Notes under the pieces: generated by a model
What the model saw: the letters and a program-made list of their open reading frames with translations, nothing else
What the model was told of the DNA's origin: nothing
Database searches by the model: none
Shown: one piece after another, positions 8,599 through 44,793 of the stretch
How the letters are laid out: each line of letters starts with the position of its first letter
How positions within the stretch are numbered: the stretch's first letter is position 1
Assembly: GCF_016132545.1 (NCBI RefSeq)
Contig: NZ_CP066167.1
Location: 1,329,001 to 1,393,000 of the forward strand
Length of the DNA: 64,000 nt
Origin: Spongiibacter nanhainus
GTDB lineage: Bacteria; Pseudomonadota; Gammaproteobacteria; Pseudomonadales; Spongiibacteraceae
Direction of reading: 5' to 3'
Position numbers and translations under genes: made by a program

Positions 8599-8673
8599 GT
8601 AGGGTGGACATCGCCTTTTATGTCCACCGCATTGTGGCACCGATGGCGGACATAAAATCGATGTCCGCCCTAC
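8599..8673. repeat. REP cluster R1 (head-to-head REP pair)
   Basis: Two palindromes face each other. The first is GTAG (8599-8602) then stem GGTGGACA (8603-8610) and TGTCCACC (8621-8628). The second is GGCGGACAT (8645-8653) and ATGTCCGCC (8661-8669) followed by CTAC (8670-8673). The GTAG tetranucleotide next to a palindromic stem is the hallmark of REPs mobilised by RAYT transposases. Bases 8670-8672 are also the stop codon of the minus-strand kinase gene. Confidence 0.9.
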
Positions 8674-9686
8674 GCGGCACTGCCCAAAACGGCGGCTTTG
8701 ATATCGCTGTGCATTGGGCCGGGTAATCTGGGTCCGTATTGCGACACCACCACACCGGCGGCGTGGCTGGCCAATTCACCTGCTTGACGGTAATCGTGGC
8801 CCTGGCTGAGGGCATACAAAAACGCGCCGGCAAACATGTCCCCGGCGCCGTTGGTATCCACCGCTTTCACCGGATGGGCGTCGATGCGGTGAACGGTCTC
8901 ACCGTCAAACACCAAGGAGCCTTTCGCACCCAGGGTAACGGCAAAGGTGCGGGCCACTTCCATCAAGCTGTCCATGGCTTCCTCAATATCGTCACAACCC
9001 GCCCAGCTCAACGCCTCGTCCTCGTTGCAGAACAATATGTCGACGCCGCCCCCCAACATTTCTGCCAGGCCGTCGCGAAAGTGCGCCACAATCCCCGGGT
9101 CGGAAAAGCTCAATGCCGTTTTCACCTTGTTTGCCTCGGCGACTTCCCGCCCGCGGATGGCCGCCGCGCGACCACTGTCCGAAGTCACCAGATAACCCTC
9201 GATATAAAAAAAGGCGGAGTCTGCCAGGGCATCTTCGTCCAACTCTTTATGAGATAACTCGGCACTGATGCCCAAATGGGTGTTCATGCTGCGCTCGGCA
9301 TCGGGGCTGATCAGTACCAGGCATTTACCGGTGACGCCGGCGTCCCGGGGGCTGTCAAAGTCGGATGCCACGCCGGCGGCGCGAATATCATTCAGGAATA
9401 TGCGGCCAAATTCGTCGTCGGCAACTTTGCCCGAGAAATAGCTGTTGGCGCCGAAATACGCCGCCGCCACTACCGAGTTGCAAGCCGATCCCCCACTAGC
9501 CTGGCTGGAGTGAACCAGATGGCCCTCCAACTGGTCCAACAGCTGCTGTTGACGGGCTTCGTCCACCAGGGTCATCAAACCTTTGTCCACCTCCATGGCC
9601 GCCAGTTCGTCGTCGTTGACTTGAATTTCTGTGTCGACCAGGGCCGCACCGATGCCGTAAACGTGATATTTTTTCGCTTTGCTCAT
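8670..9686 (-). CDS. PfkB-family sugar/nucleoside kinase, adenosine kinase-like
   Basis: A 338-residue ribokinase-fold enzyme that phosphorylates a sugar or nucleoside hydroxyl with ATP. The C-terminal PfkB signature DTNGAGDMFAGAFLYAL includes the catalytic Asp, and the N-terminal glycine motif SGGSACNSVVAAAYFG binds substrate. The overall pattern (MSKAKKYHVYGIGAALVDTE start) matches bacterial adenosine-kinase-type members, though the substrate cannot be read from sequence. Its TAG stop at 8672-8670 is contributed by the GTAG of the adjacent REP element. Confidence 0.85.
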   Translation of the reverse strand: MSKAKKYHVYGIGAALVDTEIQVNDDELAAMEVDKGLMTLVDEARQQQLLDQLEGHLVHSSQASGGSACNSVVAAAYFGANSYFSGKVADDEFGRIFLNDIRAAGVASDFDSPRDAGVTGKCLVLISPDAERSMNTHLGISAELSHKELDEDALADSAFFYIEGYLVTSDSGRAAAIRGREVAEANKVKTALSFSDPGIVAHFRDGLAEMLGGGVDILFCNEDEALSWAGCDDIEEAMDSLMEVARTFAVTLGAKGSLVFDGETVHRIDAHPVKAVDTNGAGDMFAGAFLYALSQGHDYRQAGELASHAAGVVVSQYGPRLPGPMHSDIKAAVLGSAA

Positions 9687-9792
9687 TTATGACTGCCATT
9701 ACCCAATACATTTAGCGTTTTATTATCCCGCTACCTAGCGGTTTTGCAATGCAAGTGGCCAATAGCCACCAAATCGCGATACTGAGAGTTAC

Positions 9793-12126
9793 ATGCCCAA
9801 GCGATCCCCATCAAAAAAACCGGCCAAGAAAAAAACCAGCAAACGTCAGTCCCGTGGTTTTCGAATTCCCCGCCCCAGCCTGGGGCTACTGGTTAAGCTC
9901 GCTATCGTCGGTGTGGTCTTGTTTACCATGCTGGCGGTTTACTGCGATGCCCAGGTGAGGGGCGCCTTTGATGCCCAGCGCTACGATCAGCCGGCCAAAG
10001 TATATGCTCGTCCACTGGTGCTGGCCTCTGGCGCGATACTGACTTCCTACGAGCTGGAAGAGGCGCTGCAGCAACTGGGCTATCAGCCCCGGCGCCTGCT
10101 CAATGCCCCCGGCAGCTACAATCGCAGTGGCGACCAGTTCACCATTTTTCTGCGTCCCTTCCACTTTGCCGATGGCCTGCGCCCCGCCAAAAAGATCGAG
10201 GTGAGCATGGGCCCCACAACGGTGGCTGCGGTGCGCAACGAGTTGGGGCAGCGTATTCCCGAAGCGCAGCTCGATCCCATGGTAATTGGTGGGGTCTACC
10301 CCGACCGCCACGAAGACCGGCTGATGCTGACCCTGGAAGAGACGCCGCGCATGCTGATCGAGACCCTGCTGCAGGTGGAGGACCAGCGCTTCTACAGCCA
10401 CTTTGGGGTGTCTCCCCGTGATATTGCCCGGGCCTTTATCGCCAATATCAAGGCCGGTCGCACGGTTCAGGGGGGCAGCACCCTGACTCAACAACTGGTC
10501 AAAAATACCCTGCTGACTAACGAACGCAGCTTGTGGCGCAAAGCCAAAGAAGCCGTAATGGCACTACTGACCGAGGTTCACTACAGCAAAGATCATATCC
10601 TTCAGGCCTACATTAATGAGGTTTACCTGGGGCAGGAGGGCAACCGCGCCATCCACGGCTTTGGTCTGGCGGCCCGGCATTACTTCAACCGCCCCATCCA
10701 CGAGCTGGATTTGGCGCAAGTTGCCATGCTGGTGGGCATGGTAAAAGGCCCCTCCTATTACGACCCCTGGCGCCACCCGGAGCGGGCTGAGAATCGCCGC
10801 AACGTGGTGCTCAATCTGATGGCGCAAGAAGGCTGGTTAAACAGCGAACAGCTGGCAGCCTGGCAAAAGGAACCATTGCGTTTGGCGAAGAGCTCGGCCT
10901 TGGAAGGGGTTTATCCCGCCTACGTTGACCTGGTGCGGCGCCAGTTAAGTCGGGACTACGCCCGGCAGGATCTACAAAGCAAAGGCTTACGGATATTCAC
11001 GCCCTTTGATCCGCTATTACAGCGGCGGGCCGAAAAAGCCATGAAACGGGCATTGGCGACGCTGTCAGACCGGGATGGCCACAAAGAGCTGCAGGTGGCC
11101 ATGGTGGTCACCCGGGTGAATAGCGGTGACGTGGTGGCGGTGATCGGCGGGCGCGAGCCGCGCTATGCCGGTTTCAACCGGGCGCTGGATGCCCTGCGAC
11201 CCATCGGTTCATTGGCCAAGCCCGCAGTTTATCTTACTGCCTTATCCCGGCCCCGGGACTACACCCTGATGACGCCCTTGCGGGATGAATCCATATCGGT
11301 GCCGGCCAGTGATGGCAGTCTGTGGCGGCCGCAAAACTACGATCGCAAAACCCACGGCATGGTGCCCCTGCACACGGCATTATCCAAGTCTTACAACCTG
11401 GCTACTGCCAACCTGGGCCTCGATCTGGGTTTGAGTGATGTCATGGATACCTTCCGTCGCCTGGGCATACACCGGCCGCTGCTGGAAGTGCCGTCGATGT
11501 TGCTGGGGGCTGCTGAGCTTGCGCCCATAGAGGTGAGCGCCATGTATCAGACTATCGCCGCTGATGGTCGCTATACACCGCTGCGCACAATTTACGCCGT
11601 GTCGGATAGCAAGGGCGAACCGCTGGCCCGTTATCCTCAGCAGCCCAAGCAGGTTATTGAAGAGGCGCCGGTGCACCTATTGAAGTACGCCATGCTGGAA
11701 ACCGTGCGGGAAGGCACCGGAAAAAGTGTTTACAACATGTTGCCCAAGGACTATCGGGTCGCCGGCAAAACCGGCACCAGTAACGATACCCGGGATTCCT
11801 GGTTTGCCGGTTTTGCCGGTGACTATCTGGCAGTAGTTTGGATGGGGCGGGACGACAATGCCTCCACCGGCCTCACTGGTGCCAGCGGCGCCCTGCGGGT
11901 ATGGCGGCAATTTATGGCCGAGGCGAGCACTGAACAGATGCCCTTTACCCAGGCCCGCAATGTGGAATATCACTGGGTCAATGGTGAGGACGGTGGCCTG
12001 ACCCAGTCCTGGTGTACCAATGCCCGTTATATGCCCTTTATTGTGGGCAGCGCGCCGCGCCACAACAGCGGTTGCGCACCGGATGGAGAAAAAGCCTGGA
12101 ACTGGTTCAAGCGAATATTTGATTAG
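9793..12126 (+). CDS. mrcB: Penicillin-binding protein 1B
   Basis: A 777-residue bifunctional class A PBP that polymerises and cross-links peptidoglycan. A basic cytoplasmic tail (KRSPSKKPAKKKTSK) precedes one membrane segment (about residues 34-52), a UB2H-like region, and the GT51 glycosyltransferase domain with EDQRFYSHFGV and GGSTLTQQLVKN. The transpeptidase domain follows, with SxxK as SLAK (RPIGSLAKPAVYL), SxN as SYN in SKSYNLAT, and KTGTS. All catalytic motifs are intact. It is transcribed away from the kinase gene. Confidence 0.95.
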   Translation: MPKRSPSKKPAKKKTSKRQSRGFRIPRPSLGLLVKLAIVGVVLFTMLAVYCDAQVRGAFDAQRYDQPAKVYARPLVLASGAILTSYELEEALQQLGYQPRRLLNAPGSYNRSGDQFTIFLRPFHFADGLRPAKKIEVSMGPTTVAAVRNELGQRIPEAQLDPMVIGGVYPDRHEDRLMLTLEETPRMLIETLLQVEDQRFYSHFGVSPRDIARAFIANIKAGRTVQGGSTLTQQLVKNTLLTNERSLWRKAKEAVMALLTEVHYSKDHILQAYINEVYLGQEGNRAIHGFGLAARHYFNRPIHELDLAQVAMLVGMVKGPSYYDPWRHPERAENRRNVVLNLMAQEGWLNSEQLAAWQKEPLRLAKSSALEGVYPAYVDLVRRQLSRDYARQDLQSKGLRIFTPFDPLLQRRAEKAMKRALATLSDRDGHKELQVAMVVTRVNSGDVVAVIGGREPRYAGFNRALDALRPIGSLAKPAVYLTALSRPRDYTLMTPLRDESISVPASDGSLWRPQNYDRKTHGMVPLHTALSKSYNLATANLGLDLGLSDVMDTFRRLGIHRPLLEVPSMLLGAAELAPIEVSAMYQTIAADGRYTPLRTIYAVSDSKGEPLARYPQQPKQVIEEAPVHLLKYAMLETVREGTGKSVYNMLPKDYRVAGKTGTSNDTRDSWFAGFAGDYLAVVWMGRDDNASTGLTGASGALRVWRQFMAEASTEQMPFTQARNVEYHWVNGEDGGLTQSWCTNARYMPFIVGSAPRHNSGCAPDGEKAWNWFKRIFD

Positions 12127-12132
12127 CCATAT

Positions 12133-12157
12133 GTTGGGTTTCATTCTTCAACCCAAC
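12133..12157. terminator. Possible bidirectional terminator hairpin
   Basis: A perfect 8-bp stem, GTTGGGTT (12133-12140) and AACCCAAC (12150-12157), with a 9-nt loop lies between the convergent stops of mrcB and the retropepsin gene. There is no strong T-run on either side, so intrinsic termination is uncertain. Confidence 0.35.
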
Positions 12158-12164
12158 CGACGAA

Positions 12165-12680
12165 TTAATTGTACTGTCGTACCCGCAGCTCATTATTGCG
12201 ATGCGTGACCTCCAGCTCCCGAAGAAACGACATCCCCAACAGCACTTCGTCAATTCCCGGCATATCGGGGTTGATGGAGGCGGGCACGTTCTCCAGTTCA
12301 ATATTACCCAGCCTCACCCGGTCCAGGAGTGTATAGCGCACCTCTATTGGCCCCCCGGCGGTTTGTGCCACACCTTTGCCCTCGCCCCGCAGTCCCAAAT
12401 CCCTGGCTACCGTCGCCGGAATCGACACCAGTGTCGCGCCGGTGTCCACCATAAAGCGCACCGGCTGGCCGTTGATCTCGCCGTTAGCAATGTAATGACC
12501 GCCCCGGGAGCTATTCAGCAGCACTTCTTTATAAGTGCCGGTCTCACTGCTCTCGACTCGGCGGCGCTGATCCAGATAATCAGAGAACGCCCACAGCAAT
12601 ACCGCCACAAGACCGACCCAGAACAGAATCAGCATGGTACGGCCGTATTGGGAAGTGTCAGCGTCGGTCATGTAGGGCAA
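12165..12680 (-). CDS. Membrane-anchored retropepsin-like aspartic protease (clan AA, TIGR02281-like)
   Basis: A 171-residue protein with one N-terminal membrane segment (MLILFWVGLVAVLLWAFSDYL, about residues 16-36) and a single retropepsin domain. The active site is visible as FMVDTGATLVSIP (DTGA) near residue 77, and the C-terminal part contains LLGMSFLREL. One catalytic Asp per chain implies a homodimer. Substrates are unknown. It is convergent with mrcB; its upstream side faces the R2 repeat array. Confidence 0.85.
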   Translation of the reverse strand: MPYMTDADTSQYGRTMLILFWVGLVAVLLWAFSDYLDQRRRVESSETGTYKEVLLNSSRGGHYIANGEINGQPVRFMVDTGATLVSIPATVARDLGLRGEGKGVAQTAGGPIEVRYTLLDRVRLGNIELENVPASINPDMPGIDEVLLGMSFLRELEVTHRNNELRVRQYN

Positions 12681-12704
12681 AATCCTGAGGTAGTCACTTT
12701 GATG

Positions 12705-13463
12705 GTAGGGTGGACAGCGCTTTCCTGTCCACCACGATTACCCAGTGTACGTGCGCGCGGAGCAGTTGGTGCAGATACGCGGTGGACATAAACGTCAATG
12801 TACGCCCTACGAGATTCGACGCATCACCCTGCGTACGGCGGACATCGCTTTTATGTCCGCCATTTCCACCATGGCCGCGGCGTACATAAACGGCGATGTA
12901 CGCCCTACGGGATTCGATGCATCACCCCGCGTGCGGCGGACATCGCATTTCATGTCCGCCATTGCCGCCATGGTTTCGGCGTACATAAACGGCGATGTAC
13001 GCCCTACGGGATTCGATGCACCACCCCGCGTACGGCGGACACCGCATTTGTGTCCGCCATTCCCACCGTGGTTACGGCGTACATACACGGCGATGTACGC
13101 CCTAAGGGGTTCGATGCATCACCCCGCGTGCGGCGGACATCGCATTTCATGTCCGCCATTGCCACCGTGGCTGCGGCGTACATACACGGCGATGTACGCC
13201 CTACGAGATTCGACGCACCACCCTGCGTGCGGCGGACATCGCTTTTCATGTCCGCCATTCCCACCATGGCTGCGGCGTACATACACGGCGATGTACGCCC
13301 TACGGATTCAATGCACCACCCTGCGTACGGCGGACACCGCTTTCGTGTCCGCCATTGCCACCGTGGCTGCGGCGTACATAAACGGCGATGTACGCCCTAC
13401 GGGTGCGGATGAACCCACGATATGCGGTACACTGTAGGGCGGACATCGCTTTATATGTCCGCC
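12705..13463. repeat. REP cluster R2, tandem array with ~98-bp period
   Basis: A 759-bp array fills the gap between the retropepsin gene and galE. It opens with GTAG plus a GGTGGACA/TGTCCACC hairpin. About six tandem units follow, beginning at 12833, 12931, 13030, 13128, 13227 and 13325. Each has a GGCGGACA/TGTCCGCC hairpin, a short spacer, a GGCGTACA/TGTACGCC hairpin, CCTAC, and a spacer containing GATTCGATGCATCACC. A final GTAG hairpin lies at 13434-13463. Internal left hairpins start with GTAC or GTGC rather than GTAG. No gene is credible here. Confidence 0.92.
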
Positions 13464-13508
13464 TATTCACCGCCAACACCAATCCAACGCCAAGGACGCA
13501 CTCACCCA

Positions 13509-14519
13509 ATGATCCTAGTCACAGGCGGCGCCGGCTACATCGGCAGCCACACCGTAGTCGAACTGCTGCAACAGAACCAAGACGTTATCGTCCTCGATAA
13601 CCTCGTCAACAGCAGCATCACCGTACTAGACCGCATCGAGACGATCACCGGTAAACGCCCCCAGTTTTACCAGGGCGATGTGCGCGACAAAGCATTGCTT
13701 CTGGACATTTTTGCCAACCACAAGGTTGCCGCCGTCATTCACTTTGCCGGCCTGAAAGCGGTGGGGGAGAGCGTTGAGCAACCGCTGCGCTACTACGAAA
13801 ACAACGTTAACGGCACACTGGTATTGTGTGACGCCATGGCCGAAGCCGGCGTAAAGAACCTGGTCTTCAGCTCCTCGGCCACTGTGTACGGACCCGACGC
13901 CCCCGTCCCCTATGAAGAGTCCATGCCCCTGGGCCAGCCCTCCAGCCCCTACGGCGCATCGAAAGCCATGATTGAACGCGTGCTGATGGACCTCTGCGTT
14001 GCCGAAGACAACTGGTCGGTGGTGGCACTGCGCTACTTCAATCCCATCGGTGCACACCCCTCCGGGCACATCGGTGAGGATCCCAAAGGTATCCCCAATA
14101 ATCTAATGCCCTTTATCAGCCGTGTGGCGGTGGGCAAGCTCCCCGAACTGTCCATCTTCGGCAACGATTACGACACCGATGATGGCACCTGTGTGCGAGA
14201 TTATCTGCATGTGGTGGATTTGGCCGATGGCCACTGCCGCGCGTTGGCTTTACTCGACAAATCGGGGTTTCAACCCGTCAATTTGGGTACCGGCAACGGG
14301 GTGTCGGTGTTAGAGATGGTGACCAGCTTTCAAGAAGTGACCGGCCAAGCCGTGCCCTACAAATTTGCGCCCCGTCGCAGTGGCGACCTGCCGGCGTTCT
14401 GGGCCAATGCCGACTTGGCAGAATCTCTAATGGGGTGGAGCGCCGACGGCGATCTTAAACGGATGATGGCCGACACCTGGCGCTGGCAAAGCCAAAACCC
14501 CGATGGGTACGATGAATAA
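13509..14519 (+). CDS. galE: UDP-glucose 4-epimerase
   Basis: A 336-residue extended SDR that interconverts UDP-glucose and UDP-galactose using bound NAD. The Rossmann motif VTGGAGYIGSHT is at the N-terminus, the Ser in FSSSATVYG and the YGASK catalytic Tyr/Lys lie mid-protein, and the C-terminus has the NLGTGNGVSVLEM region. The start is the ATG before ILVTGG; the longer open frame upstream only reads through repeat DNA. AAGGA lies about 12 nt upstream. It probably supplies UDP-galactose to the nearby polysaccharide locus. It is flanked on both sides by REP arrays. Confidence 0.95.
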   Translation: MILVTGGAGYIGSHTVVELLQQNQDVIVLDNLVNSSITVLDRIETITGKRPQFYQGDVRDKALLLDIFANHKVAAVIHFAGLKAVGESVEQPLRYYENNVNGTLVLCDAMAEAGVKNLVFSSSATVYGPDAPVPYEESMPLGQPSSPYGASKAMIERVLMDLCVAEDNWSVVALRYFNPIGAHPSGHIGEDPKGIPNNLMPFISRVAVGKLPELSIFGNDYDTDDGTCVRDYLHVVDLADGHCRALALLDKSGFQPVNLGTGNGVSVLEMVTSFQEVTGQAVPYKFAPRRSGDLPAFWANADLAESLMGWSADGDLKRMMADTWRWQSQNPDGYDE

Positions 14520-14590
14520 GGTTCACGGACTGGCGGGATTTCCCGCCGCATTTGTGTTCCCGTGGTTGCGGGTTCGATGCAATACCATGC

Positions 14591-14823
14591 GTACGGCGGA
14601 CACCGCTTTTGTGTCCGCCATTGCCACCGTGGTTGCGGCGTACATAAAAGTCGATGTACGCCCTACGGTTGGGGTTCGATGCAATACCATGCGTACGGCG
14701 GACATCGGTTTTATGTCCGCATTCTCACCGTGGTTGCGGCGTACATACACGACGATGTACGCCCTACGGTTGGGGGTTCGATACAATACCATGCGTAGGG
14801 CGGACATCGCTTTTATGTCCGCC
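14591..14823. repeat. REP cluster R3, ~102-bp tandem units
   Basis: Three tandem left hairpins start at 14591 (GTAC), 14693 (GTAC) and 14795 (GTAG), with GGCGTACA-type right hairpins and CCTAC in between. The spacer contains GATGCAATACCATGCG and differs from the R2 spacer. The array occupies most of the 385-bp gap between galE and the RAYT gene. Confidence 0.9.
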
Positions 14824-14904
14824 ATCCCCCCAAAACCAAAATTGGACATAACCACCTAAACGCACCACACTCCTCGGTAAAACCGCAAGGCTCAAGGACG
14901 AACC

Positions 14905-15417
14905 ATGCCCAACTACCGCCGCTCTCGCGTTCCCGGCGCGTGCTATTTTTTTACTGTGACACTTGCCGACCGGGACCAAACTCTGCTTATCGACCACATC
15001 GATCTATTACGTGCATCGGTACGTCGCGTAAAATCCCGACGCCCTTTTATAATCAATGCTTGGGTGACCCTGCCCGATCACCTCCACTGCATATGGACCC
15101 TGCCGGAGGGCGATGACGACTTCCCCAACCGCTGGAAAGCCATAAAGGGCAGCTTCTCCAAGCAACTCCCCAACATCGAAACGCGCTCAACGACGCAACA
15201 CCGCCGGCGCGAGCGAGGTATCTGGCAGCGACGGTATTGGGAACACCAAATCAGGAACGACGAGGATTATTGGCGGCATATGGATTACGTCCATTGGAAC
15301 CCGGTCAAACACGGTTGGGTAAACCGTGCGACGGAGTGGCCGTATTCATCCTTTCACCGGGCGGTGAAGGAGGGGATATACCCACCCAATTGGGGTGACG
15401 ACACCACCAACACGTAG
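14905..15417 (+). CDS. REP-associated tyrosine transposase (RAYT, Y1 HUH family)
   Basis: A 170-residue single-strand DNA endonuclease-like protein of the Y1_Tnp/RAYT family, which are domesticated relatives of IS200/IS605 TnpA. The start [20 protein letters not shown] is typical. The HUH metal motif appears as LPDHLHCIW, and the catalytic Tyr lies in [12 protein letters not shown] near residue 131. AAGGA is 6 nt before the ATG. It lies between REP clusters R3 and R4, and its TAG stop (15415-15417) is part of the GTAG of the next REP. It is the likely partner of the REP family in this window. Confidence 0.93.
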
Positions 15418-15488
15418 GGCGGACACCGCTTTCGTGTCCGCCATCTCCACCGTGGTTGCGGCGTGCATAAACGGCGGTGGACCCCTAA
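15414..15488. repeat. REP cluster R4
   Basis: GTAG (15414-15417) plus a GGCGGACA/TGTCCGCC hairpin ends at 15442. A degenerate right-hand hairpin ends in CCTAAC at 15488. The TAG of GTAG ends the RAYT gene. Confidence 0.88.
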
Positions 15489-15503
15489 CGGGGCTTAAAA
15501 TCA

Positions 15504-15554
15504 ACTTGCACAAGTTTTTGTACAAGTTATACTTGTCCCATATATTGTACAAGT
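15504..15554 (+). promoter_or_regulatory. yefM-yoeB promoter and TGTACA operators
   Basis: A promoter-like pair, TTGCAC (15506-15511) and TATACT (15528-15533), is separated by 16 bp. Overlapping it are the near-palindrome ACTTGCACAAGT (15504-15515) and two TGTACA cores at 15519-15524 and 15546-15551, each within TTGTACAAGT. TGTACA is the known core of YefM/YoeB operators, so autorepression by the antitoxin or TA complex is likely. Confidence 0.75.
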
Positions 15555-15569
15555 AAAGGCCAGTATACA

Positions 15570-15824
15570 ATGAAGGTCATAAGCTTTTCGGATGCCCGAA
15601 ACAAACTCAAAAGCGTGTTGGATCAGGTGGTTAACGACGCTGACTACACTATTATCAGTCGTCGGGGTGGCGAGGACGCGGTTGTGATGTCTTTAGACCA
15701 ATTCAATGGTCTCATGGAAACCGTGCACCTACTGAAAAGCCCCGCAAACGCGGCACACCTATCAAAATCCATACAGCAATATCGCGCAGGCAAAACAAAG
15801 CAGCATGGAATCAGCGAAGATTGA
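15570..15824 (+). CDS. yefM: YefM/Phd-family antitoxin
   Basis: An 84-residue antitoxin. The N-terminus MKVISFSDARNKLKSVLDQV folds as the Phd/YefM DNA-binding and dimer domain. ISRRGGEDAVVMSLDQFNGL is the conserved middle, and the C-terminus is the toxin-binding tail. It neutralises YoeB and represses the operon by binding the TGTACA sites just upstream. It overlaps the toxin start by 20 nt, the usual translational coupling. Confidence 0.93.
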   Translation: MKVISFSDARNKLKSVLDQVVNDADYTIISRRGGEDAVVMSLDQFNGLMETVHLLKSPANAAHLSKSIQQYRAGKTKQHGISED

Positions 15825-16080
15825 AATTCTCTCATGGACGAGAGAGGCCTGGTCGGACTACCTCTACTGGCAATCGCAAGATAAGAAAACGCTAAAGCGC
15901 ATCAACAAGCTGATACGAGATACCCAGCGTTCACCGTTTGAGGGGATAGGCAAGCCAGAGCCCCTGAAAGAAAGCTTGACCGGTTTTTGGTCAAGACGAA
16001 TCGACGATACCCACCGTTTGGTATACGCGGTAGATAGCGATCAAGTCACAATCATTGCATGCCGATACCACTACACGTAG
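15805..16080 (+). CDS. yoeB: YoeB-family ribosome-dependent mRNA interferase toxin
   Basis: A 91-residue RelE-superfamily toxin that cleaves mRNA at the ribosomal A site. Catalytic positions are visible: Glu in GIGKPEPLK, Arg in FWSRRIDDTHRLVY, and the C-terminal CRYHY with the His-Tyr pair. E. coli YoeB ends at this Tyr; here one Thr follows (ACG) and then TAG (16078-16080). That stop belongs to the GTAG of the adjacent REP, so repeat insertion stopped just past the essential C-terminus. It overlaps yefM. Confidence 0.93.
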   Translation: MESAKIEILSWTREAWSDYLYWQSQDKKTLKRINKLIRDTQRSPFEGIGKPEPLKESLTGFWSRRIDDTHRLVYAVDSDQVTIIACRYHYT

Positions 16081-16292
16081 GGCGGACACCGCATTTGTGT
16101 CCGCCATTCCCACCATGGCTGCGGCGTACATCGCTTTTCATGTCCGTCATTCCCACCATGGTTAAGGCGTACATAAACGACGATGTACGCCCTACGGATT
16201 CGATGCATCACCTTGCGTACGGCGGACATCGCCTTTCATGTCCGCCACCCCCGCCTTAATTGCGGCGGACAAAAAATCGTTGTCCGCCCTAC
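16077..16292. repeat. REP cluster R5
   Basis: GTAG and a GGCGGACA/TGTCCGCC hairpin lie at 16077-16105. Mixed and GGCGTACA-type hairpins follow, and the cluster ends with GGCGGACA/TGTCCGCC followed by CTAC (16289-16292). Its left GTAG supplies the stop of yoeB and its right CTAC the stop of the minus-strand ABC ATPase gene, so both flanking convergent genes end inside the element. Confidence 0.9.
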
Positions 16293-17749
16293 GATTCGGT
16301 AATTTCCGCGGTGTATCCGCCATCGGGGTGGGGCACCAAGCTCAACCACTGGTTAATACACTCGGGGATTTCATCACTGCGATGGCTAACAAACAAAATC
16401 CGCGTTTGGCCGTGGGCGGCAATCTGATCCACTGCCCCCAACAACCGCGCTTTTTGCTCTTCATCCAAACCAATGCACGGTTCATCCAAAATCAACACCC
16501 GCGGCGATTTCACCATGGCCCGGGCCAATAAAATCATCCGTTGCTGACCAAAGGACAGGCGGTCAAATCGCTCCTCCCGCTGGGCCAACATATCGAAGGC
16601 GTCTAACCACGCCATCAATTTCTGGCGTTCGCCCTCGCCATAATTACTGTACAAACCAATCGAATCGAACAAGCCCGAAGCCAATACATCAATCACTTTG
16701 GTGCGCTTAAGGTGAGTTAACTGCGTGCTGGTGTTTAGCAGGCCAAACTGTGCTTTTACCTCCCACACGCTTTCACCGCTGCCTCGCAAGGTCCCAAACA
16801 ACTCAACATGCTGACTGTAGGCCTTGTCATTCTCGCCGCACAGCAAATTGAGGAGGGTGGACTTACCCGCACCATTGGGGCCGTTAATGCAGCAATGCTG
16901 ATGGGGCATCAATGTCCAGTTAATGTCTTGCAAGACCTGGCGGCCACGAAAGTTCACGCTGACATTCGCCAGCTTGATCAGCGCTTTGTCCGCCGGCCAT
17001 GCCGGGGCATCGTCAATGGGTAAAGGTTTGCTGAAATGCGCCCGGGGCCGATCGATGACGCGGGCCTCGGTGGCGCTACCAAGCTCGGTTATAACACTGT
17101 CTTTCAGCTGCAACACCCGCTCAATGCCATCGGGGATGTCAGCGGCATTCTTGCTGAGAATCAACAGGGGAGTAGGGGAATGGATCAGCTCATCCAGCAA
17201 ATCCCGCATCTCTTGCTGGGCGTTTTTATCCAAACCTTCCAAGGGGTTATCCAATACCAAAGCCGCAGGCTTGGCCATCAAGGACCGAGCCAACAAGGTT
17301 TTACGGCTCTCGCCGGTGGAGATAAAGCGAATGCCCTGGTCGAGAATATGGCTAATACCCAAACGCTGACACAGGGAATCAAAGTCCCCGTCAGCCTCTC
17401 GGCCTTGCAGAATAATATCCCGGACTGCCGTGCCTTTATCAAAGGCGTCTTCCCGGGTCTCGCTGTCGTCAAAGCGACGATCCCGCTCCATCAACTCCCG
17501 GTGAAGATCAAACGACACGTGGGCAATGTCGCCGGGGCCAATACCATCGCCGAAGGTGATGGTCCCCCGGTTGGGGCGCACCTTGTCCGTCATTAACAAC
17601 GCCAGGGTGGTTTTGCCGCAGCCGTTGCCGCCGAGAATGGCAATATGCTCGCCAGCCGGCCAGGACCAAGTGAAGTTGTCGAGCACCGGATCAAGTTGGT
17701 AGGCAAAACGCACATTATCGAAATGCACGATGGGAGAGGAATGGTTCAT
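16289..17749 (-). CDS. ModF-like protein with two ABC ATPase domains
   Basis: A 486-residue soluble protein with two ABC nucleotide-binding domains. Domain 1 has Walker A GGNGCGKTTLALL near residue 40 and Walker B ALVLDNP. Domain 2 has GPNGAGKSTLLNLLCG near residue 290, the signature LSFGQQRMILLARA and Walker B VLILDEPCIGLD. This arrangement resembles ModF/PhrA, a tandem ATPase linked to molybdate genes, but no transporter subunits are adjacent. Domain 1 has a weak LSGGQ (FISTGESRKTLLARSL). The TAG stop is shared with REP cluster R5. The function is unproven. Confidence 0.8.
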   Translation of the reverse strand: MNHSSPIVHFDNVRFAYQLDPVLDNFTWSWPAGEHIAILGGNGCGKTTLALLMTDKVRPNRGTITFGDGIGPGDIAHVSFDLHRELMERDRRFDDSETREDAFDKGTAVRDIILQGREADGDFDSLCQRLGISHILDQGIRFISTGESRKTLLARSLMAKPAALVLDNPLEGLDKNAQQEMRDLLDELIHSPTPLLILSKNAADIPDGIERVLQLKDSVITELGSATEARVIDRPRAHFSKPLPIDDAPAWPADKALIKLANVSVNFRGRQVLQDINWTLMPHQHCCINGPNGAGKSTLLNLLCGENDKAYSQHVELFGTLRGSGESVWEVKAQFGLLNTSTQLTHLKRTKVIDVLASGLFDSIGLYSNYGEGERQKLMAWLDAFDMLAQREERFDRLSFGQQRMILLARAMVKSPRVLILDEPCIGLDEEQKARLLGAVDQIAAHGQTRILFVSHRSDEIPECINQWLSLVPHPDGGYTAEITES

Positions 17750-17772
17750 ATCATGGTGGGTTCATATCGCGG

Positions 17773-18371
17773 GGCGAACATCGCGATTGTGTTCGCCTTA
17801 TGGGGTCTAAATCGGTGGACAAAAAAAATCGTTGTCCACCCTACGTTTACATCGGCGTACGGCGGACATCGCCCTTTATGTCCGCCATAGGGTGGCTCCG
17901 AACGGTGGACAAAAATCGTTGTCCACCCTACGTTTACATCGGCGTACGGTGGACATCGCCTTTTATGTCCGCCATTGGGTGGCTCCGAACGGTGGACAAA
18001 AATCGTTGTCCACCCCACGTTTACATCAGCGTACGGCGGACATCGCTTTTCATGTCCGCCATGGTGTGCCTCCCACCGGTGGACAAAACCACGTTGTCCA
18101 CCCCACGTTCACATCGGCGTAGGGCGGACATCGCCTTTCATGTCCGCCATGGGGGTGGCTCAATTGGTGGACAAATAAATCGTTGTCCACCCCACGTTTA
18201 CATCAGCGTACGGCGGACATCGTCTTTTATGTCCGCCATTGGGTGGCTCCGACCGGTGGATAAAAAATCGTTGTCCACCCCACGTTCACATCGGCGTACG
18301 GCGGGCATCGTCTTTTATGTCCGCCATGGGGGTGGCTCAATGGTGGACAAACAAAGCGTTGTCCACCCTAC
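17773..18371. repeat. REP cluster R6, ~88-bp alternating array
   Basis: The array opens with a GGCGAACA/TGTTCGCC hairpin (17773-17797). Seven GGTGGACA/TGTCCACC hairpins start at 17814, 17904, 17991, 18078, 18166, 18255 and 18342, a period of 87-90 bp. They alternate with GGCGGACA/TGTCCGCC hairpins. The spacer, CCACGTTTACATCGGCGTA-like, is specific to this cluster. The last CTAC (18368-18371) directly abuts the TAA of wzc. There is no credible gene in this 620-bp interval. Confidence 0.92.
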
Positions 18372-20675
18372 TTATTTACCTTCGGGCTTATACTCGTAAT
18401 GGTAATAATGGTACCCATACCGATACCCATAAACCCCGCCGCGGCGCTCAACCGCATTGAGGATAACGCCCTTAATATTAATGCCGTTCTGTTCACAACG
18501 CCGACGGCACAAGTCCACCTCTTTTACGGGGTTTTTGCCAAAGCGCACCACCAACATACTTACACCCGCATGCTGGGCCACAATGGTGGCATCGGTTACC
18601 GCCATAATCGGGGGGGTATCAACCAACACCAAATCAAATTCGTTATTGAGCTGCTCCATCAACTCAGTAAACTCCTCCCGCATCAACAATTCGGAAGGGT
18701 TGGGCGGCGCCTTGCCTCGCGGCAATACATGCAGATTACTGACCCGCGTTTGTTGTATCGCCTCAGATACTTCAGCCCGTTTACCCAAAATATCCGAAAG
18801 GCCAACCTTGCCATCCACATCAAACATCTTGTGCAAATAGCCCCGGCGCAAGTCGGTGTCCATTACCAAAACGCGCTGGCCGGTCTGGGCAATAACCGCC
18901 GCCAGGTTACCAGTAATAAAGGATTTACCCACACCGGGGCTGGGGCCGGATACCACAATCACATTGTTCTTGGCCTCCAGCATCGCAAAGTGCAGGCTGG
19001 TGCGCAGGCTGCGTAAACTTTCTACTGCTATATCGGTGGGGTCGTTCCAGGTTAGCAGGCCCTCTGGGTGGTGCAGGTGACGACTGCGAGCCCGGGAGTC
19101 AAATTTACGCTGATTGTCGGACTCGGGAATCGAGGCATACACAGGTAAGCCAAGTGCTTCAATATCGTCGGAGTTCTCTACACCGCGGTTTAGGGCATTG
19201 CGGATCAGCACGTAGGCCACGCCGATAAAGCCACCCAGCAGGGTTGCAATAACGACAATCAGCGCCTTTTTGGGCTTAACCGGGTCCTGCGTATTTACAA
19301 CGGCTTCATCCACAATGCGCACATTACCCACGGTACCTGCCCGTACAATATCTAGCTCCTGAATATTATTTAGCATCTGGGTGTAGATCTCGGTGCCCAC
19401 CTCCAGGTCACGCCGCAAGCTCAATACATCTTGTTGAGTTTGTGGCAAATTGCGAACCCGCTTATCCAAGTCGGCTTTGCGGCTTTTAAGCTCTGCCATT
19501 TGCTCTTGCCAGGCAATATACTGGGGGTGGTCAGTGGTAAAGCGGCGGTCAATCTCTGACTTTTCCAACTGCAGTTCAGCAATTTTGGATTCAATCTCTA
19601 CCACCTGATTCAGTAGTACCTCGGCTTCAGCGGTGATGTTTACCGAACCGGCTTCTACCTGGTAGTCATTGAGCTTGCGCTCTGCTTCTTCTAAGTCTTT
19701 TTTAAGTCCAGGCAACTGACTGCGCAGAAATTCAAGACTTTTCGCAGCCTCAGCAGACTGACGCTCCACGTTTTGCCTGACATAGGCTTCAGATACGACC
19801 TCCAAAAAGCGCTCCGCTAACTGTGGGTCTTTATGTTCATAAGTAAGCGAGAGAATCCCGGAGTCTTTGCCTCGCTCGCTTACTGACAGTGCCCGCTGAT
19901 AACTGATAACAGTGCCAAGGTATTTCTTTTTCACTACGGTAAACAAGGTTCCGGACTTGGCTACGAGCTGTTCGAGGTAAATCTCGTATCCATCCTTCTT
20001 GGCAGTTCGGCCCACTTGGCCACGCAGAATCAGTTCATCCCCTGGACCGTACAGCGAGTAGTTGCCTTCCTTACCTGCAATTAAAGTAAGAGTGCTACCA
20101 ATTGCATATTGCGGCACAACCAAGCGCTGTATATCGATACGTTCGCCACCCCAGGCAAAGCGAATGCCTTCTTGTCCCTCAAATCTGGAAAGTGGTAAGC
20201 GAAGTAAAATGCCCCACGTGCTACGCAAATAACCTGCTAGGCCGCCGACTTCATCATCAGGGAGAGTGTCACCATTGCGACGGGCAACGGCCTCGCCAAC
20301 AATGGGGAAGTAAACCGGCTCTACGACAATATCCAAGCGCAACTTGTCGACGGCTGTACTCACCACTCGGCGGCTTTTAATCAGTTCTATCTCAGTGTTT
20401 GAACCAGACTCCCCACCTAATGCCTCAGATAAATCATCCATTCCGGGTAGGGAAGCCTTCTTTTCCTCTACTTGAACAATAGCGTCGGCTCGATAGATGG
20501 GGGTAGCAATCAAGGCATAGGCAACACCCAGAATACAGAAGAGCGCGGTAATACCAATGATGGTGAATTTACGCTCTAGCAATGACCCAATCAGAGCAAG
20601 CAGGTCGATTTCATCGTCTTGAATGCCCTGAGTAGGGCGCTGAGAGGGAGAAACTGAGTTTTCTGACATTGACAC
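18372..20675 (-). CDS. wzc: Wzc-type polysaccharide copolymerase / BY-kinase
   Basis: A 767-residue inner-membrane chain-length regulator with a fused bacterial tyrosine kinase. The N-terminal Wzz domain has a first membrane segment near residue 40. A coiled-coil periplasmic region and a second membrane segment (VVIATLLGGFIGVAYVLI) precede the kinase. Kinase motifs are Walker A SGPSPGVGKSFITG, Walker A' VLVMDTDLRRG and Walker B VLVDTPPI. The C-terminus is a Tyr-rich tail (YGYRYGYHYYHYEY), the autophosphorylation cluster. It works with Wza to export polymer. It ends right at REP cluster R6 and is downstream of wza on the same strand. Confidence 0.95.
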   Translation of the reverse strand: MSMSENSVSPSQRPTQGIQDDEIDLLALIGSLLERKFTIIGITALFCILGVAYALIATPIYRADAIVQVEEKKASLPGMDDLSEALGGESGSNTEIELIKSRRVVSTAVDKLRLDIVVEPVYFPIVGEAVARRNGDTLPDDEVGGLAGYLRSTWGILLRLPLSRFEGQEGIRFAWGGERIDIQRLVVPQYAIGSTLTLIAGKEGNYSLYGPGDELILRGQVGRTAKKDGYEIYLEQLVAKSGTLFTVVKKKYLGTVISYQRALSVSERGKDSGILSLTYEHKDPQLAERFLEVVSEAYVRQNVERQSAEAAKSLEFLRSQLPGLKKDLEEAERKLNDYQVEAGSVNITAEAEVLLNQVVEIESKIAELQLEKSEIDRRFTTDHPQYIAWQEQMAELKSRKADLDKRVRNLPQTQQDVLSLRRDLEVGTEIYTQMLNNIQELDIVRAGTVGNVRIVDEAVVNTQDPVKPKKALIVVIATLLGGFIGVAYVLIRNALNRGVENSDDIEALGLPVYASIPESDNQRKFDSRARSRHLHHPEGLLTWNDPTDIAVESLRSLRTSLHFAMLEAKNNVIVVSGPSPGVGKSFITGNLAAVIAQTGQRVLVMDTDLRRGYLHKMFDVDGKVGLSDILGKRAEVSEAIQQTRVSNLHVLPRGKAPPNPSELLMREEFTELMEQLNNEFDLVLVDTPPIMAVTDATIVAQHAGVSMLVVRFGKNPVKEVDLCRRRCEQNGINIKGVILNAVERRGGVYGYRYGYHYYHYEYKPEGK

Positions 20676-20822
20676 GCCTATTCATTAAAAAACTTCGCGC
20701 TGCGTGGGTAAGCTCAAAGCATGAGCGTTAATCTGCAGCGTTAAGACCACGCGTTGGAGTATTAAATCCCAAGCTGGCGCCGGGCTTACCCATAAGGGAG
20801 AGCCCTGGCGCAAGGCGACGAT

Positions 20823-23510: not shown

Positions 23511-23562
23511 GCGACCAGTCTTCACTACGTAGGCAATCGAAGGTACGTAGTACGTGATAAAG

Positions 23563-23586: not shown

Positions 23587-23598
23587 ACGTCTCAGGTA

Positions 23599-29505: not shown

Positions 29506-29510
29506 ACAGC

Positions 29511-30326: not shown

Positions 30327-30327
30327 C

Positions 30328-32129: not shown

Positions 32130-32132
32130 TTT

Positions 32133-34363: not shown

Positions 34364-34366
34364 AAG

Positions 34367-36540: not shown

Positions 36541-36550
36541 AGGAAGTACT

Positions 36551-37435: not shown

Positions 37436-37448
37436 ATTAAGGGTAAAA

Positions 37449-38893: not shown

Positions 38894-38921
38894 TTTTTCT
38901 ATCACTTTGTGAGCCAGGCCT

Positions 38922-40211: not shown

Positions 40212-40250
40212 AGTCCCTTTACTTTATTGGGTGGGAGTTTTTTTGTATTT

Positions 40251-40429
40251 GGTGTACATGAAAAAGCAATGTACACCCTACGCCATATGCCCACCATCGT
40301 TGGTGGGCACCCTTTTATGTTGGCCTAGTCAACTCAGTAGCGAATTTTATGGTGGACACACTAAACGATGTTCACCCTACTTGGCTGGAGTAGCTGTATT
40401 GTAGGGCGGACATGGTTCCCATGTCCGCC
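40251..40429. repeat. REP cluster R7
   Basis: It contains GGTGTACA/TGTACACC followed by CTAC (40251-40281), a separate GCCCACC/GGTGGGC hairpin near 40290, a degenerate GGTGGACA hairpin ending in CTAC (40351-40380), and GTAG plus GGCGGACA/TGTCCGCC (40401-40429). It occupies most of the 254-bp gap between the flippase gene and manC. The stems are more diverse here than in the tandem arrays. Confidence 0.85.
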
Positions 40430-40465
40430 GGGCTGTAGATCAAGATTATATATTGGAACAGATAC

Positions 40466-41875: not shown

Positions 41876-41891
41876 TTTTTTGGGTGTGAAT

Positions 41892-42198
41892 GGCGGACAT
41901 TAAAGGCGATGTCCGCCCTACGGGCTTGGTGGGATATATCGATTTACATATCCATTGGGGCCGCATTTCGTTTTCGTAGGGTGGACATGGATTTATATGT
42001 CCACCGGGGTGTGGCGCAGTGGTTGGGATTGGCGGACACAAAGGCTGTGTCCACCCTACGGGCTTGGTGGGATATATCGATTTACATATCCATTGGGGCC
42101 AAATTTCGTTTCTCGTAGGGTGGACATCGGTTTGTATGTCCACCGGGAATTGGCGCGGTGGTGGGAAATGGCGGACATGACAGCGGTTTCCGCTCTAC
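41892..42198. repeat. REP cluster R8
   Basis: It starts with GGCGGACAT/ATGTCCGCC and CTAC (41892-41921). GTAGGGTGGACA hairpins follow near 41976 and 42115, with a GGCGGACA/TGTCCACC mixed hairpin near 42031. The last unit (42170-42198) is damaged: GGCGGACATGACAGC pairs poorly with CCGCTCTAC. That CTAC still supplies the stop of the minus-strand nucleotidyltransferase gene at 42195-42197. Confidence 0.85.
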
Positions 42199-42515
42199 TT
42201 TTCGTAGAAGACGATGCCTCGGCGCTGTATATGGTCGATGAGGCTCGCGTTGTCTATATCGCTCATGCATGACACATCGAATTTGTAGGGTAGTGGGGTT
42301 TCTTCCAATTCCTGGATCAGTTGCTGGACTTCGTCGTCTGGGATGTTGCCAATCAAGGTAAGGTCGATATCTGAACCGGGGCGGTGCGTGCCCATAGCGC
42401 GAGATCCGTACAATAATGCTTTGTCGATATTGGCGTGAGTTGCCAGTATGTGCTGAATTTGGGCTACTGCCTCGACCGGTAGTGAAAATTGGCTGTTGTG
42501 GGCTGTAGTCGTCAT
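42195..42515 (-). CDS. Minimal nucleotidyltransferase (MNT) of HEPN/MNT module 1
   Basis: A 106-residue nucleotidyltransferase-fold protein. The GSx10DxD site is intact as GSRAMGTHRPGSDIDL near residues 37-52. In HEPN/MNT toxin-antitoxin pairs the MNT protein (MntA type) can AMPylate and neutralise the HEPN RNase partner. It overlaps the upstream HEPN gene by 4 nt. The TAG stop comes from the GTAG of a degraded REP in R8. Confidence 0.85.
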   Translation of the reverse strand: MTTTAHNSQFSLPVEAVAQIQHILATHANIDKALLYGSRAMGTHRPGSDIDLTLIGNIPDDEVQQLIQELEETPLPYKFDVSCMSDIDNASLIDHIQRRGIVFYEK

Positions 42516-42934
42516 GGCTTGTCCACTAGCTTGGTATTTAGTGTTGCTATCAATGCATTGAATTGGGCGTGATAGTCGTTACAGATATTCGCGATAATCG
42601 CTTCTGCTGTTTTTTCGTTATATGTGTGGCTGGTTCTATTACGGTCGACCAGCATATTCATCCAGATTTGTCCCTCCGACACTAGCCCCTGGTTAAATGC
42701 TTCCCGGATAGTATCCCGAGACCCAATCAGGTCGCAGATGCCCTGCCACTCGAGGTAATTCTTTAGGGTGTTCCATGCCAATTCGTAGGTAAACTCGAAG
42801 GCTTGTATAAGCCCTTGCTTCTCAAGCGAGCTGAGTTCTCTTTTTGAGGCCAGCATGACTGCATCGTCGAGTTGTACGAAGGCTTTGGTGTAGTTTTGAA
42901 ACCGTTGTTGCCAACGGATGTCTGGGTTGGTCAT
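42512..42934 (-). CDS. HEPN-domain protein (HI0074-type) of module 1
   Basis: A 140-residue helical protein of the HI0074 'nucleotidyltransferase substrate-binding' family. The HEPN RNase motif Rx4HxY is visible as RNRTSHTY near residue 100, and FEFTYELAWNTLKNYL is a family signature. It is probably the toxin partner of the downstream MNT gene, although in HI0073/HI0074 a substrate-binding role was first proposed. In this module HEPN comes first and MNT second. Confidence 0.82.
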   Translation of the reverse strand: MTNPDIRWQQRFQNYTKAFVQLDDAVMLASKRELSSLEKQGLIQAFEFTYELAWNTLKNYLEWQGICDLIGSRDTIREAFNQGLVSEGQIWMNMLVDRNRTSHTYNEKTAEAIIANICNDYHAQFNALIATLNTKLVDKP

Positions 42935-43042
42935 GGTTGTGGGGGAACGCCGTTTGTTTGCTAGGTGCCGATTTTTGAGAGTAGCACCGCTCGATCAGTT
43001 GGACAACGGCCAGGGTTTCGGGGTGGCATGGTGGTTGGGGAT

Positions 43043-43517
43043 GGCGGACACAAAATCGGTGTCCGCCCTACATTGGTGTTGCATCAAATTCTCGAAATCC
43101 GCACCCCGTAGGGCGTACATCGCCGTTTATGTACGCCGCGACCACGGTGGGATGGCGGACACGAAAGCGGTGTCCGCCCTACGTTGTTGTTGCATCAAAT
43201 TCTCGAAATCCGCACCCCGTAGGGCGTACATCGCCGTTTATGTACGCCGCGACCACGGTGGGGATGGCGGACACAAAATCGGTGTCCGCCCTACGTTGGT
43301 GTTGCATCAAATCCTGGAAATCCCCACCCCGTAGGGCTGTAATCGCCGTTTATGTACGCCGCGACCATGGTGGGAATGGCGGACACGAAAGCGGTGTCCG
43401 CCCTACGTTGGTGTTGCATCAAATCCTTGAATCCCCACCCCGTGGGGCGTACATCGCCTTTTATGTACGCCGCAACCACGGTGGGGTTGGCGGACACGAA
43501 AGCGGTGTCCGCCCTAC
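43043..43517. repeat. REP cluster R9, ~112-bp tandem array
   Basis: Five GGCGGACAC hairpins start at 43043, 43154, 43266, 43378 and 43489, a period of 111-112 bp, alternating with GTAG-GGCGTACA/TGTACGCC hairpins. The spacer contains TTGGTGTTGCATCAAAT and is shared with R10 but not with the other clusters. The last CTAC (43514-43517) ends the HEPN gene of module 2. There is no credible gene in this interval. Confidence 0.92.
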
Positions 43518-44002
43518 GGCAATTGTAAATGCAGGTGCTTGATGGCGTATTGCCGCATGGCATCAAAGTCATCGTGCATGTGGTCTGTGAATTGGCTAGC
43601 CCGCTCCAGGGCGGTGGTCAAATGCTCGAGGTTATCAATATATTCGTGGACGAGTCGATTTCTCAGCTGGCGCATTTGTAGCCATTTGTCGCCGTCTTCG
43701 ATCAAGCCGAGCCGCTCCAAGCGGCCTAGATTGTCAATAGCAGCTAATACTGGCTCGCCGGCGGCACTTAATAGCGCGGGCATAAGCTTGTCGACGATCG
43801 TGTCTTGCATCCGACCAAATTTCGCGCCAAAGGACTCCAGGCGATCTATGCCCAGGTCGCTAGAGATCAGTTTTTCGACCTCTTGAGGCTTTAGCGCTTT
43901 TTTTGTACCCAGGAAACGCTCGCGCACAGCAAGTAAGTGCTGATCCTCCCGGGCCACCAATTCAAATAGGCGAATGAGCCTGTCATGGCGATTCTGGGTC
44001 AT
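43514..44002 (-). CDS. HEPN-domain RNase-like protein (HepT type) of module 2
   Basis: A 162-residue helical protein. The HEPN catalytic motif Rx4HxY is present as RNRLVHEY near residue 115, preceded by LRQ-type helix. It overlaps the upstream MNT gene by 4 nt. The gene order is reversed relative to module 1: MNT first, HEPN second. Its TAG stop is the GTAG of REP cluster R9. The probable role is a translation- or tRNA-targeting toxin controlled by its MNT partner, inferred from the family. Confidence 0.8.
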   Translation of the reverse strand: MTQNRHDRLIRLFELVAREDQHLLAVRERFLGTKKALKPQEVEKLISSDLGIDRLESFGAKFGRMQDTIVDKLMPALLSAAGEPVLAAIDNLGRLERLGLIEDGDKWLQMRQLRNRLVHEYIDNLEHLTTALERASQFTDHMHDDFDAMRQYAIKHLHLQLP

Positions 44003-44301
44003 TCTAGCGTTATCCCTGTTTCTTGGGCGTGTTTATCGATAGGGCGCAGGGGCGTTTTTTTGTTGTGGACAATAATATCGATGCGTCGCTCGCCTAAACG
44101 GCGCTGTAAACGTGCGTATAGGGCGAGCTCTTTTTCCAAAAGTTGTGAAGGTGAGCCGTCCGCGTCAATGTGTAAATCGATGTCGCCCCCTCGAACATTG
44201 TCGTTGAGCCGGGAACCAAAAAGAAGCAAGGTCGCATCACGACCAAAGACCTGCTCGAATTCTTCGCAAATAATGGCGCGTTGATTTTCGGATAGACGCA
44301 T
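43999..44301 (-). CDS. Minimal nucleotidyltransferase (MntA-like) of module 2
   Basis: A 100-residue nucleotidyltransferase-fold protein. The active site is GSRLNDNVRGGDIDLHID, with nine residues between GS and DxD rather than ten. FEQVFGRDATLLLFGS precedes it. It is probably the antitoxin of the downstream HEPN gene. Upstream (44302-44428) lies a short promoter region before REP cluster R10. Confidence 0.82.
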   Translation of the reverse strand: MRLSENQRAIICEEFEQVFGRDATLLLFGSRLNDNVRGGDIDLHIDADGSPSQLLEKELALYARLQRRLGERRIDIIVHNKKTPLRPIDKHAQETGITLE

Positions 44302-44428
44302 GCGTGATTTGGCCTTTCCATACCACTTTGTGGATAGTTTAACGCGGTAGGCGAATTGGTGCTATTTTGGTGTGGTGCTGTGGGCATCGGTTTTTATGTT
44401 CACTGGGGCTTTGCACGGTGGTTGGGGC

Positions 44429-44793
44429 GGCGGACACAAAGGCGTTGTCCGCCCTACGTTGGTGTTGCATCAAATCCTGGAAATCCGCATCCCGTAGGGC
44501 GTACATCGCCGTTTATGTACGCCGCGACTATGGTGGGAATGGCGGACTCGAAAGCGTTGTCCGCCCTACGTTGGTGTTGCATCAAATCCTGGAAATCCGC
44601 ATCCCGTAGGGCGTACATCGCCGTTTATGTACGCCGCGACCACGGTGGGGTTGGCGGACACGAAAGCGGTGTCCGCCCTACATTGGTGTTGCATCAAATT
44701 CTCGAAATCCGCACCCCGTAGGGCGTACATCGCCTTTTATGTACGCCGCGACCATGGTGGGAATGGCGGACACGAAAGCGGTGTCCGCCCTAC
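44429..44793. repeat. REP cluster R10, ~112-bp tandem array
   Basis: Four units start at 44429, 44541, 44653 and 44765, each exactly 112 bp, with the same spacer and orientation as R9. R9 and R10 therefore flank the module 2 HEPN/MNT genes as direct repeats. The final CTAC (44790-44793) provides the stop of the minus-strand MBL gene. Confidence 0.92.

Follow-up and report, generated by a model that had tools for sequence, protein, structure and literature searches.

REP palindromes flush with amber stop codons in Spongiibacter nanhainus: comparison with congeners nearly devoid of REPs suggests native stops beside which the REPs settled

Seven genes in one region of the Spongiibacter nanhainus genome end with an amber codon that at the same time belongs to the GTAG tetranucleotide at the base of a REP palindrome, which raises the question of whether the REPs gave these genes their stops or settled beside stops that were already in place. 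The region, hereafter the window, is a stretch of 64,000 nucleotides (assembly GCF_016132545.1, contig NZ_CP066167.1, positions 1,329,001 to 1,393,000 of the forward strand), and feature coordinates below are those of the window unless a contig position is given. The original prediction favoured insertion beside existing stops and supposed that GTAG could be the target of the RAYT (REP-associated tyrosine transposase) encoded there; its alternative was that REPs had landed in gene 3' ends and supplied new stops. The question has a wider bearing, as the spread of REPs is called poorly understood in the abstract of one biochemical study (PMC8266576) and a central unresolved issue, with a few excision events as the direct evidence, in passages of another paper (Bertels and Rainey, 2011, PMC3116915). 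In S. nanhainus the genome is filled with REPs, the congeners are almost without them and half of the gene ends facing a REP head are flush with it, which makes it possible to formulate a testable rule, namely that a host (C)GTAG is kept at insertion. The comparison reported here argues against REPs supplying new, earlier stops and points to old stops in the genes compared.

All seven stops were checked in the sequence and proved to be as predicted: each gene ends in xxG-TAG, and each TAG lies inside the GTAG at a REP base, an arrangement designated below as offset -4, at which the TAG of the REP GTAG serves as the stop codon. The PfkB kinase gene (8670-9686) has its stop at 8670-8672, within the GTAG 8670..8673 (minus strand) of a REP pair with heads outward (><, 8599..8673) situated between this gene and a convergent one at 7974-8570. 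The RAYT gene (14905..15417, plus strand) ends in the GTAG 15414..15417 (plus strand) of a single REP located directly behind it (15414..15442, plus strand). The array ><>< at 16077..16292 lies between yoeB (15805-16080; Pfam YoeB_toxin) and a ModF-like ATPase gene (16289-17749) and is flush with both stops through the GTAGs 16077..16080 (plus strand) and 16289..16292 (minus strand). Three other arrays are flush at their right ends with the stops of the module-1 MNT nucleotidyltransferase gene (42195-42515; Pfam Polbeta; array 41892..42198), the module-2 HEPN/HepT-like gene (43514-44002; array of eight units, 43043..43517) and a gene of a beta-CASP/RMMBL protein (44790-46187; array of seven units, 44429..44793), the respective GTAGs being 42195..42198, 43514..43517 and 44790..44793, all on the minus strand; the REP beside the module-1 MNT gene is degenerate (GTAGAGCGGAAACC). 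The TAA of wzc (gene 18372-20675, TAA at 18372-18374) directly abuts the REP GTAG 18368-18371, also as predicted (wzc end with REP GTAGGG, 18368..18374, minus strand, offset 0). The earlier hand count, by which 7 of 13 gene 3' ends facing a REP cluster show the overlap, was exact: when the window was recounted for gene 3' ends that have a REP between -40 and +150, ten of the 13 were seen to face a REP head (seven at offset -4) and three a tail (none at -4).

The two HEPN/MNT toxin-antitoxin-like modules are arranged in tandem (42195-44301), each adjoining REP arrays, and the second array contains repeats of about 112 bp; neither module has a congener match among the matches listed. Scanning against Rfam found no matches in the window. 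A small ORF of 69 aa at 47938-48147, which we take to be cold-shock-protein-like, is ordinary, its DNA being matched in congeners, in many of them in several copies.

The RAYT sits among REP arrays. Its protein matches the family profile NF047646 over the full length (E 4e-60; 201.9 bits with a cut-off of 80; profile positions 1-146 of 146, residues 3-148) and the TnpArep structure PDB 4er8 over residues 1-169 of 170 (E 1.7e-52), and it matches no Pfam family at E 0.001. The gene is part of a lineage-specific insert (12127-16288) between the PBP1b-like and ModF-like genes, together with a presumably galE-like gene, REP arrays, including one of 15 REPs upstream of that gene (12705..13464), and yoeB; the two flanking genes lie side by side in 14 of 17 congeners, with 144 bases at most between the aligned blocks. 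The exact REP core GTAGGGYGKACA is present in 155 copies in the genome (4,078,570 bases, one contig; no copies of the reversed control), versus zero or one copy in each of the 17 congeners and likewise in three other members of the family. Since the congeners are nearly without the core, mostly have the two flanking genes adjacent and show no RAYT match among those listed, the lineage seems to have acquired both the REPs and the RAYT recently.

When up to three mismatches were allowed, 36 stretches around REP clusters (window included), which total 299,935 bases and hold 154 of the 155 exact cores, yielded 214 REP-like units, and GTAG is present in 172. Like GTAG-tagged REPs, these are short imperfect palindromes with GTAG at one foot, in many copies, mainly extragenic and near gene 3' ends (47 ends facing a REP head and 21 facing a tail, with a REP within -40..150). 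Inverted pairs with short spacing, as expected of REPINs, are represented by seven simple >< clusters, six of which measure 67-103 bp and the seventh 166 bp, and by alternating arrays; there are also <> pairs and REPs standing alone. Nineteen clusters have both heads outward, and five are flush with stops on both flanks. At L006, L008, L012 and L014, as well as at 16077-16292 in the window, a REP array takes up the entire 3' spacer of a convergent gene pair and reaches exactly to the stop on either side. In congeners the same convergent pairs can be very tight: the folB and cca stops overlap in G019, and the stops of the ROK kinase and adenosyltransferase genes are one base apart in G011. At three REP edges (contig G000:C1 at about 993.9 kb, 1309.1 kb and 2998.1 kb; L009, L013 and L025) GTAG is replaced by CAAG; the flank is identical in all three (agata preceding), two of them adjoin copies of a 326-aa gene, and they perhaps belong to a longer repeated unit.

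Genome-wide, the overlap exceeds chance: 24 of the 47 gene ends facing a REP head stop at exactly -4. In 23 of these the stop lies in GTAG and in one, the end of a crp-family gene that we take to be vfr, in CTAG; besides vfr and the seven window genes, the 24 include thiC, argF, trmB, folB, cca, trpC and the genes of a ROK sugar kinase and a cobalamin adenosyltransferase. The other 23 head-facing ends are at offsets -35, 0, 1, 2, 2, 9, 14, 14, 19, 21, 21, 26, 27, 27, 28, 45, 53, 56, 59, 61, 66, 71 and 129. Among the 21 tail-facing ends none is at -4, and two stop inside the REP, at -11 and -13. The gene calls come from a simple script based on codon usage, supplemented manually with five small genes of the window. 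Within -4..+50, where 24 ends share one position and 15 are spread over 0..50, uniform landing would place 0.7 of 39 ends at -4 (p 3e-32; this and the following p-values assume independent edges and are optimistic, because the REP arrays are related by duplication). At REP-free gene ends GTAG is found at 29 of 573 stops and gives 81 matches over 51 downstream positions, so that its frequency at the stop is about 18 times that at a single downstream position. A model with GTAG as the target, built on these frequencies, raises the expectation from 0.7 to 10.3 of 39, with 24 observed (p 4e-6); weighting CGTAG 7.5-fold gives 7.9 of 39 (p 2e-8). When non-coding or stop GTAG sites are taken at random from the same stretches (15 stop GTAGs, 232 non-coding GTAGs), 3.2 of 53 head-out GTAG edges are expected at stops and 23 are observed (p 1e-14). 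A GTAG target explains much of the stop excess, and a two- to seven-fold excess remains (2.3-fold in the near-stop model, 3-fold with the C preference built in, 7-fold in the random-GTAG comparison).

The position of these stops was compared with that in the REP-free relatives. Fourteen of the 24 genes have congener orthologues, which gave 181 orthologue ends, identical tails being counted once both for this figure and for the count of GTAG ends given below. In these genes the stops stand near the family end, not several codons away. The protein has the median orthologue length in the case of thiC, argF, trmB, the adenosyltransferase, trpC, vfr and the ModF-like ATPase, the end of the latter being identical to that of 13 of 17 congener orthologues; the difference is -0.5 for a 106-aa protein with two orthologues, +1 for the ROK kinase, -1 for folB, cca, yoeB and the beta-CASP protein (the sole congener orthologue of which is one residue longer) and +3 for PfkB, which exceeds its 17 congener orthologues by 2-4 residues. 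YoeB ends here in CRYHYT, and its congener copies end in CRYHYEK in five of six cases and in RYHY in one. The mean absolute deviation from the family protein length is 0.61 residues for the proteins of S. nanhainus and 0.57 for those of the congeners (leave-one-out, n=178, 89% within one residue). Ends so close to the family length argue that the REPs did not land inside these 14 genes and truncate them. The reading in which REPs supplied new stops is contradicted by this comparison for most of the 14 genes, as their deviation is about that of the relatives themselves, and for folB, cca, yoeB and the beta-CASP gene it would amount to the loss of one residue. We suggest that the stop positions are native in the genes compared and that the REPs lie beside old stops. 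An artefact of gene calling, in which an ORF merely runs into the first TAG of a REP, was rejected too, since the orthologues of the 14 genes end at or near the same residue. The ten genes outside the comparison are the RAYT, module-1 MNT and module-2 HEPN genes, for which there is no congener match among the matches listed, and seven others, encoding proteins of 158 (L017), 261 (L018), 330 (L019), 135 (L022), 244 (L023), 206 (L025) and 310 aa (L033).

As the best explanation we propose, with a confidence somewhat above even, that REPs settle just 3' of a host GTAG and that the stop is thereby kept in place. The REPs of this genome, which would be of the RAYT-associated kind and recent arrivals in the lineage, would settle directly 3' of a pre-existing host GTAG, with CGTAG preferred about 7-8 times over other xGTAG. 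Where GTAG consists of the last sense base and an amber stop, the TAG would stay in frame and in place, so that the protein would be untouched and the insertion tolerated. Insertions inside genes would be lost, and those deeper in short 3' spacers, where terminators are located, may be selected against, which would leave more stop-flush copies. The insertion would probably be performed by the RAYT, and selection would account for the residual excess. The proposal draws on the exact overlap, the genome-wide excess, the near-unchanged ends of 14 genes and the C bias before GTAG. Against it stand the both-flank flush position of five clusters, which needs two insertions or a later deletion, the 2-4 additional residues of PfkB, the two- to seven-fold excess left over by GTAG availability, the scarcity of GTAG at orthologue ends and the results with other species, considered below.

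The C bias was determined separately at stops and elsewhere. At non-stop edges C precedes GTAG in 22 of 30 cases, and among non-coding GTAGs free of REPs it does so in 60 of 232 (odds ratio 7.9). Of the 24 stop edges, with vfr counted among them, 13 have the C, versus 4 of 29 REP-free GTAG stops (odds ratio 7.4); altogether it is present in 35 of 53 head-out GTAG edges. The similarity of the two odds ratios is what a single host (C)GTAG target rule predicts. The idea that GTAG is the RAYT target, in the sense known for IS200/IS605 elements, is nevertheless uncertain, since the biochemistry of TnpAREP, as given in passages of PMC8266576, assigns GTAG the role of a guide on the 5' side of the hairpin and places cleavage at CT or CA.

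As to the presence of GTAG before the REP, it is found at 8 of the 181 REP-free orthologue ends only, close to the 5% background, and the congener genes, about 70-84% identical in DNA where aligned, include no close empty site. REP-free GTAG stops are present in congeners at thiC (G011, G012), trmB (G009, G019), argF (G011, G012; three residues earlier) and the ROK kinase gene (G004, G007, G015). In vfr the last codon is CGC, as it is in 15 of 17 congeners, 6 of 17 having CGC-TAG, and congener G018 has CGG-TAG. In S. nanhainus the REP starts right behind CTAG at this gene, the only stop edge without GTAG; that the foot tetranucleotide of this REP carries the base of the congeners is suggestive of a host origin, though the codon may also have arisen from CGG by a later synonymous change. 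That each site had its GTAG before the REP came is what we infer. Insertion beside an existing G-TAG stop, as originally favoured, is partly supported: it fits best, with the stop position apparently native, and falls short of proof given the eight GTAG ends and the two- to seven-fold excess.

The GTAG could, on the other hand, be brought by the REP. In this case the REP lands slightly downstream of the stop or in the last codon, and deletion, repair or rejoining by the RAYT makes its head flush, the native stop being replaced. We consider this course of events unlikely, although several facts agree with it: GTAG is counted as a part of the REP in the TnpAREP biochemistry (passages of PMC8266576), REP tetranucleotides vary between RAYT families, being GTGG in many pseudomonads (passages of PMC3686654), five clusters are flush on both flanks, and GTAG is rare at orthologue ends. 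However, only selection would stop random deletions exactly at an intact in-frame GTAG, and a partly deleted head abutting a stop was not found among the 214 units, as collected by a detector that requires a nearly whole head. The base before the stop GTAG is C in about 72% of cases under a landing rule based on C only and in about 56% under a host-GTAG rule; 13 of 24 (54%) are seen, which is too few to decide.

Insertion behind a host GTAG, the preferred reading, has a variant, itself doubtful and with its probability contained in that of the former, in which CTAC, to which the GTAG guide is complementary, serves as the target and is cut as C^TAC, so that the gene keeps GTA and the REP gives the last G. 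Because CTAC reads as a GTAG stop on the other strand, the guide and target views would be reconcilable if the target were C^TAC. A guide rule in which A3G4 of GTAG selects CT has been published for TnpAREP (passages of PMC8266576), and both the CTAG edge of vfr and the C bias are in line with it. The C^TAC landing model was tried in its strict form and left as a variant, because 4 of the 19 clusters with both heads outward, including the simple pair at L015, have no C on either edge; by sequence alone it is indistinguishable from insertion behind GTAG. More tentatively than the main proposal, we suppose that G-preceded amber stops are the true landing pad, stop-borne (C)GTAG being used several-fold over other non-coding GTAGs as a safe harbour, and that repeated use at convergent pairs turns 3' spacers into arrays flush with both stops.

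REPs near stops are reported to affect gene expression in E. coli, and in S. nanhainus GTAG availability does not account for all of the ends at -4 and at 0-2, where an excess persists; stop-flush REPs might accordingly be kept for tuning translation termination or for protecting the mRNA 3' end, the overlap being selected and not mechanistic. This seems improbable to us, as no shared function is evident among thiC, argF, trmB, folB, cca, trpC, vfr, yoeB and RAYT and as an excess of this kind is not seen at the loci of RAYT homologues in other species. Least probable of all is the random landing of REPs in coding 3' ends, with their own GTAG becoming an earlier stop: the TAG of a landing REP would indeed act as a stop in one of the three frames, and the published wording, in a passage of PMC3733652, is that REP termini 'provide' the TAG, but the proteins are not clearly shortened, and 24 ends at one position versus 15 over 0..50 would require many tolerated truncated codons.

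The generality of the overlap was assessed at 80 RAYT-homologue loci of other species, many of them from Pseudomonas and the rest from other bacteria, mostly proteobacteria. Of 50 ends that face a REP head there, as detected by a simple REP pattern that may miss families, no more than 2 lie at -4, and the effect is not general at these loci, which speaks against the preferred insertion behind GTAG. A hairpin follows 5 of 77 GTAG stops and 29 of 788 other ends in the 80 loci (p 0.22), and 20 of 31 versus 8 of 200 in the present genome. Comparison of E. coli K-12 and SE15 (the first 100 kb of each) revealed one REP pair, between yaaX and yaaA (L196, about 5565-5672, versus L197), which is absent in SE15. 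As its heads are inward and there is no GTAG at the junction, the pair has no bearing on the target rule; it is a usable presence/absence site.

Insertion sequences of the IS200/IS605 family, such as IS608 and ISDra2, insert 3' of a fixed short target, which is left unchanged and without duplication. A GTAG stop followed by a REP is the expected look of such an insertion; unlike an element of that family, the REP takes no transposase gene with it, and the target rule proposed here is derived from occupied sites only. The window enzyme resembles RAYT/TnpAREP proteins (PDB 4er8 from E. coli; NF047646) in its near full-length match and in its location among REP arrays, and the REP at its own stop likens it to other rayt genes, as described in passages of PMC2817692. 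Unlike the TnpAREP enzymes of E. coli and Marinomonas, which cut at CT, or at CT and CA, with GTAG as the guide (passages of PMC8266576), it is known from sequence alone. The 19 clusters with both heads outward are similar to REPINs, in which inverted REP pairs are the probable mobile unit (Bertels and Rainey, 2011, PMC3116915); the words 'stop codon' are absent from the main text of that paper. Neither REPs with a GTAG foot nor RAYTs nor REPINs are new in themselves, and the overlap with stops was noted in 2013 in one sentence, by which the termini of GTAG-tagged REPs often give flanking ORFs their TAG stop (Di Nocera et al., 2013, PMC3733652). In the portions of the open-access literature searched, no test of stop-flush REPs against REP-free relatives was found. 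The REPs of S. nanhainus share with the GTAG-tagged REPs the short palindrome, the GTAG foot and the location mostly near gene 3' ends; in contrast to the passage in PMC3733652, which contains no count, control or REP-free comparison, the stops are counted here, and 14 genes are found to end near the family end. The new part is the comparative evidence, which suggests a native place for these stops, and the target rule to which it points.
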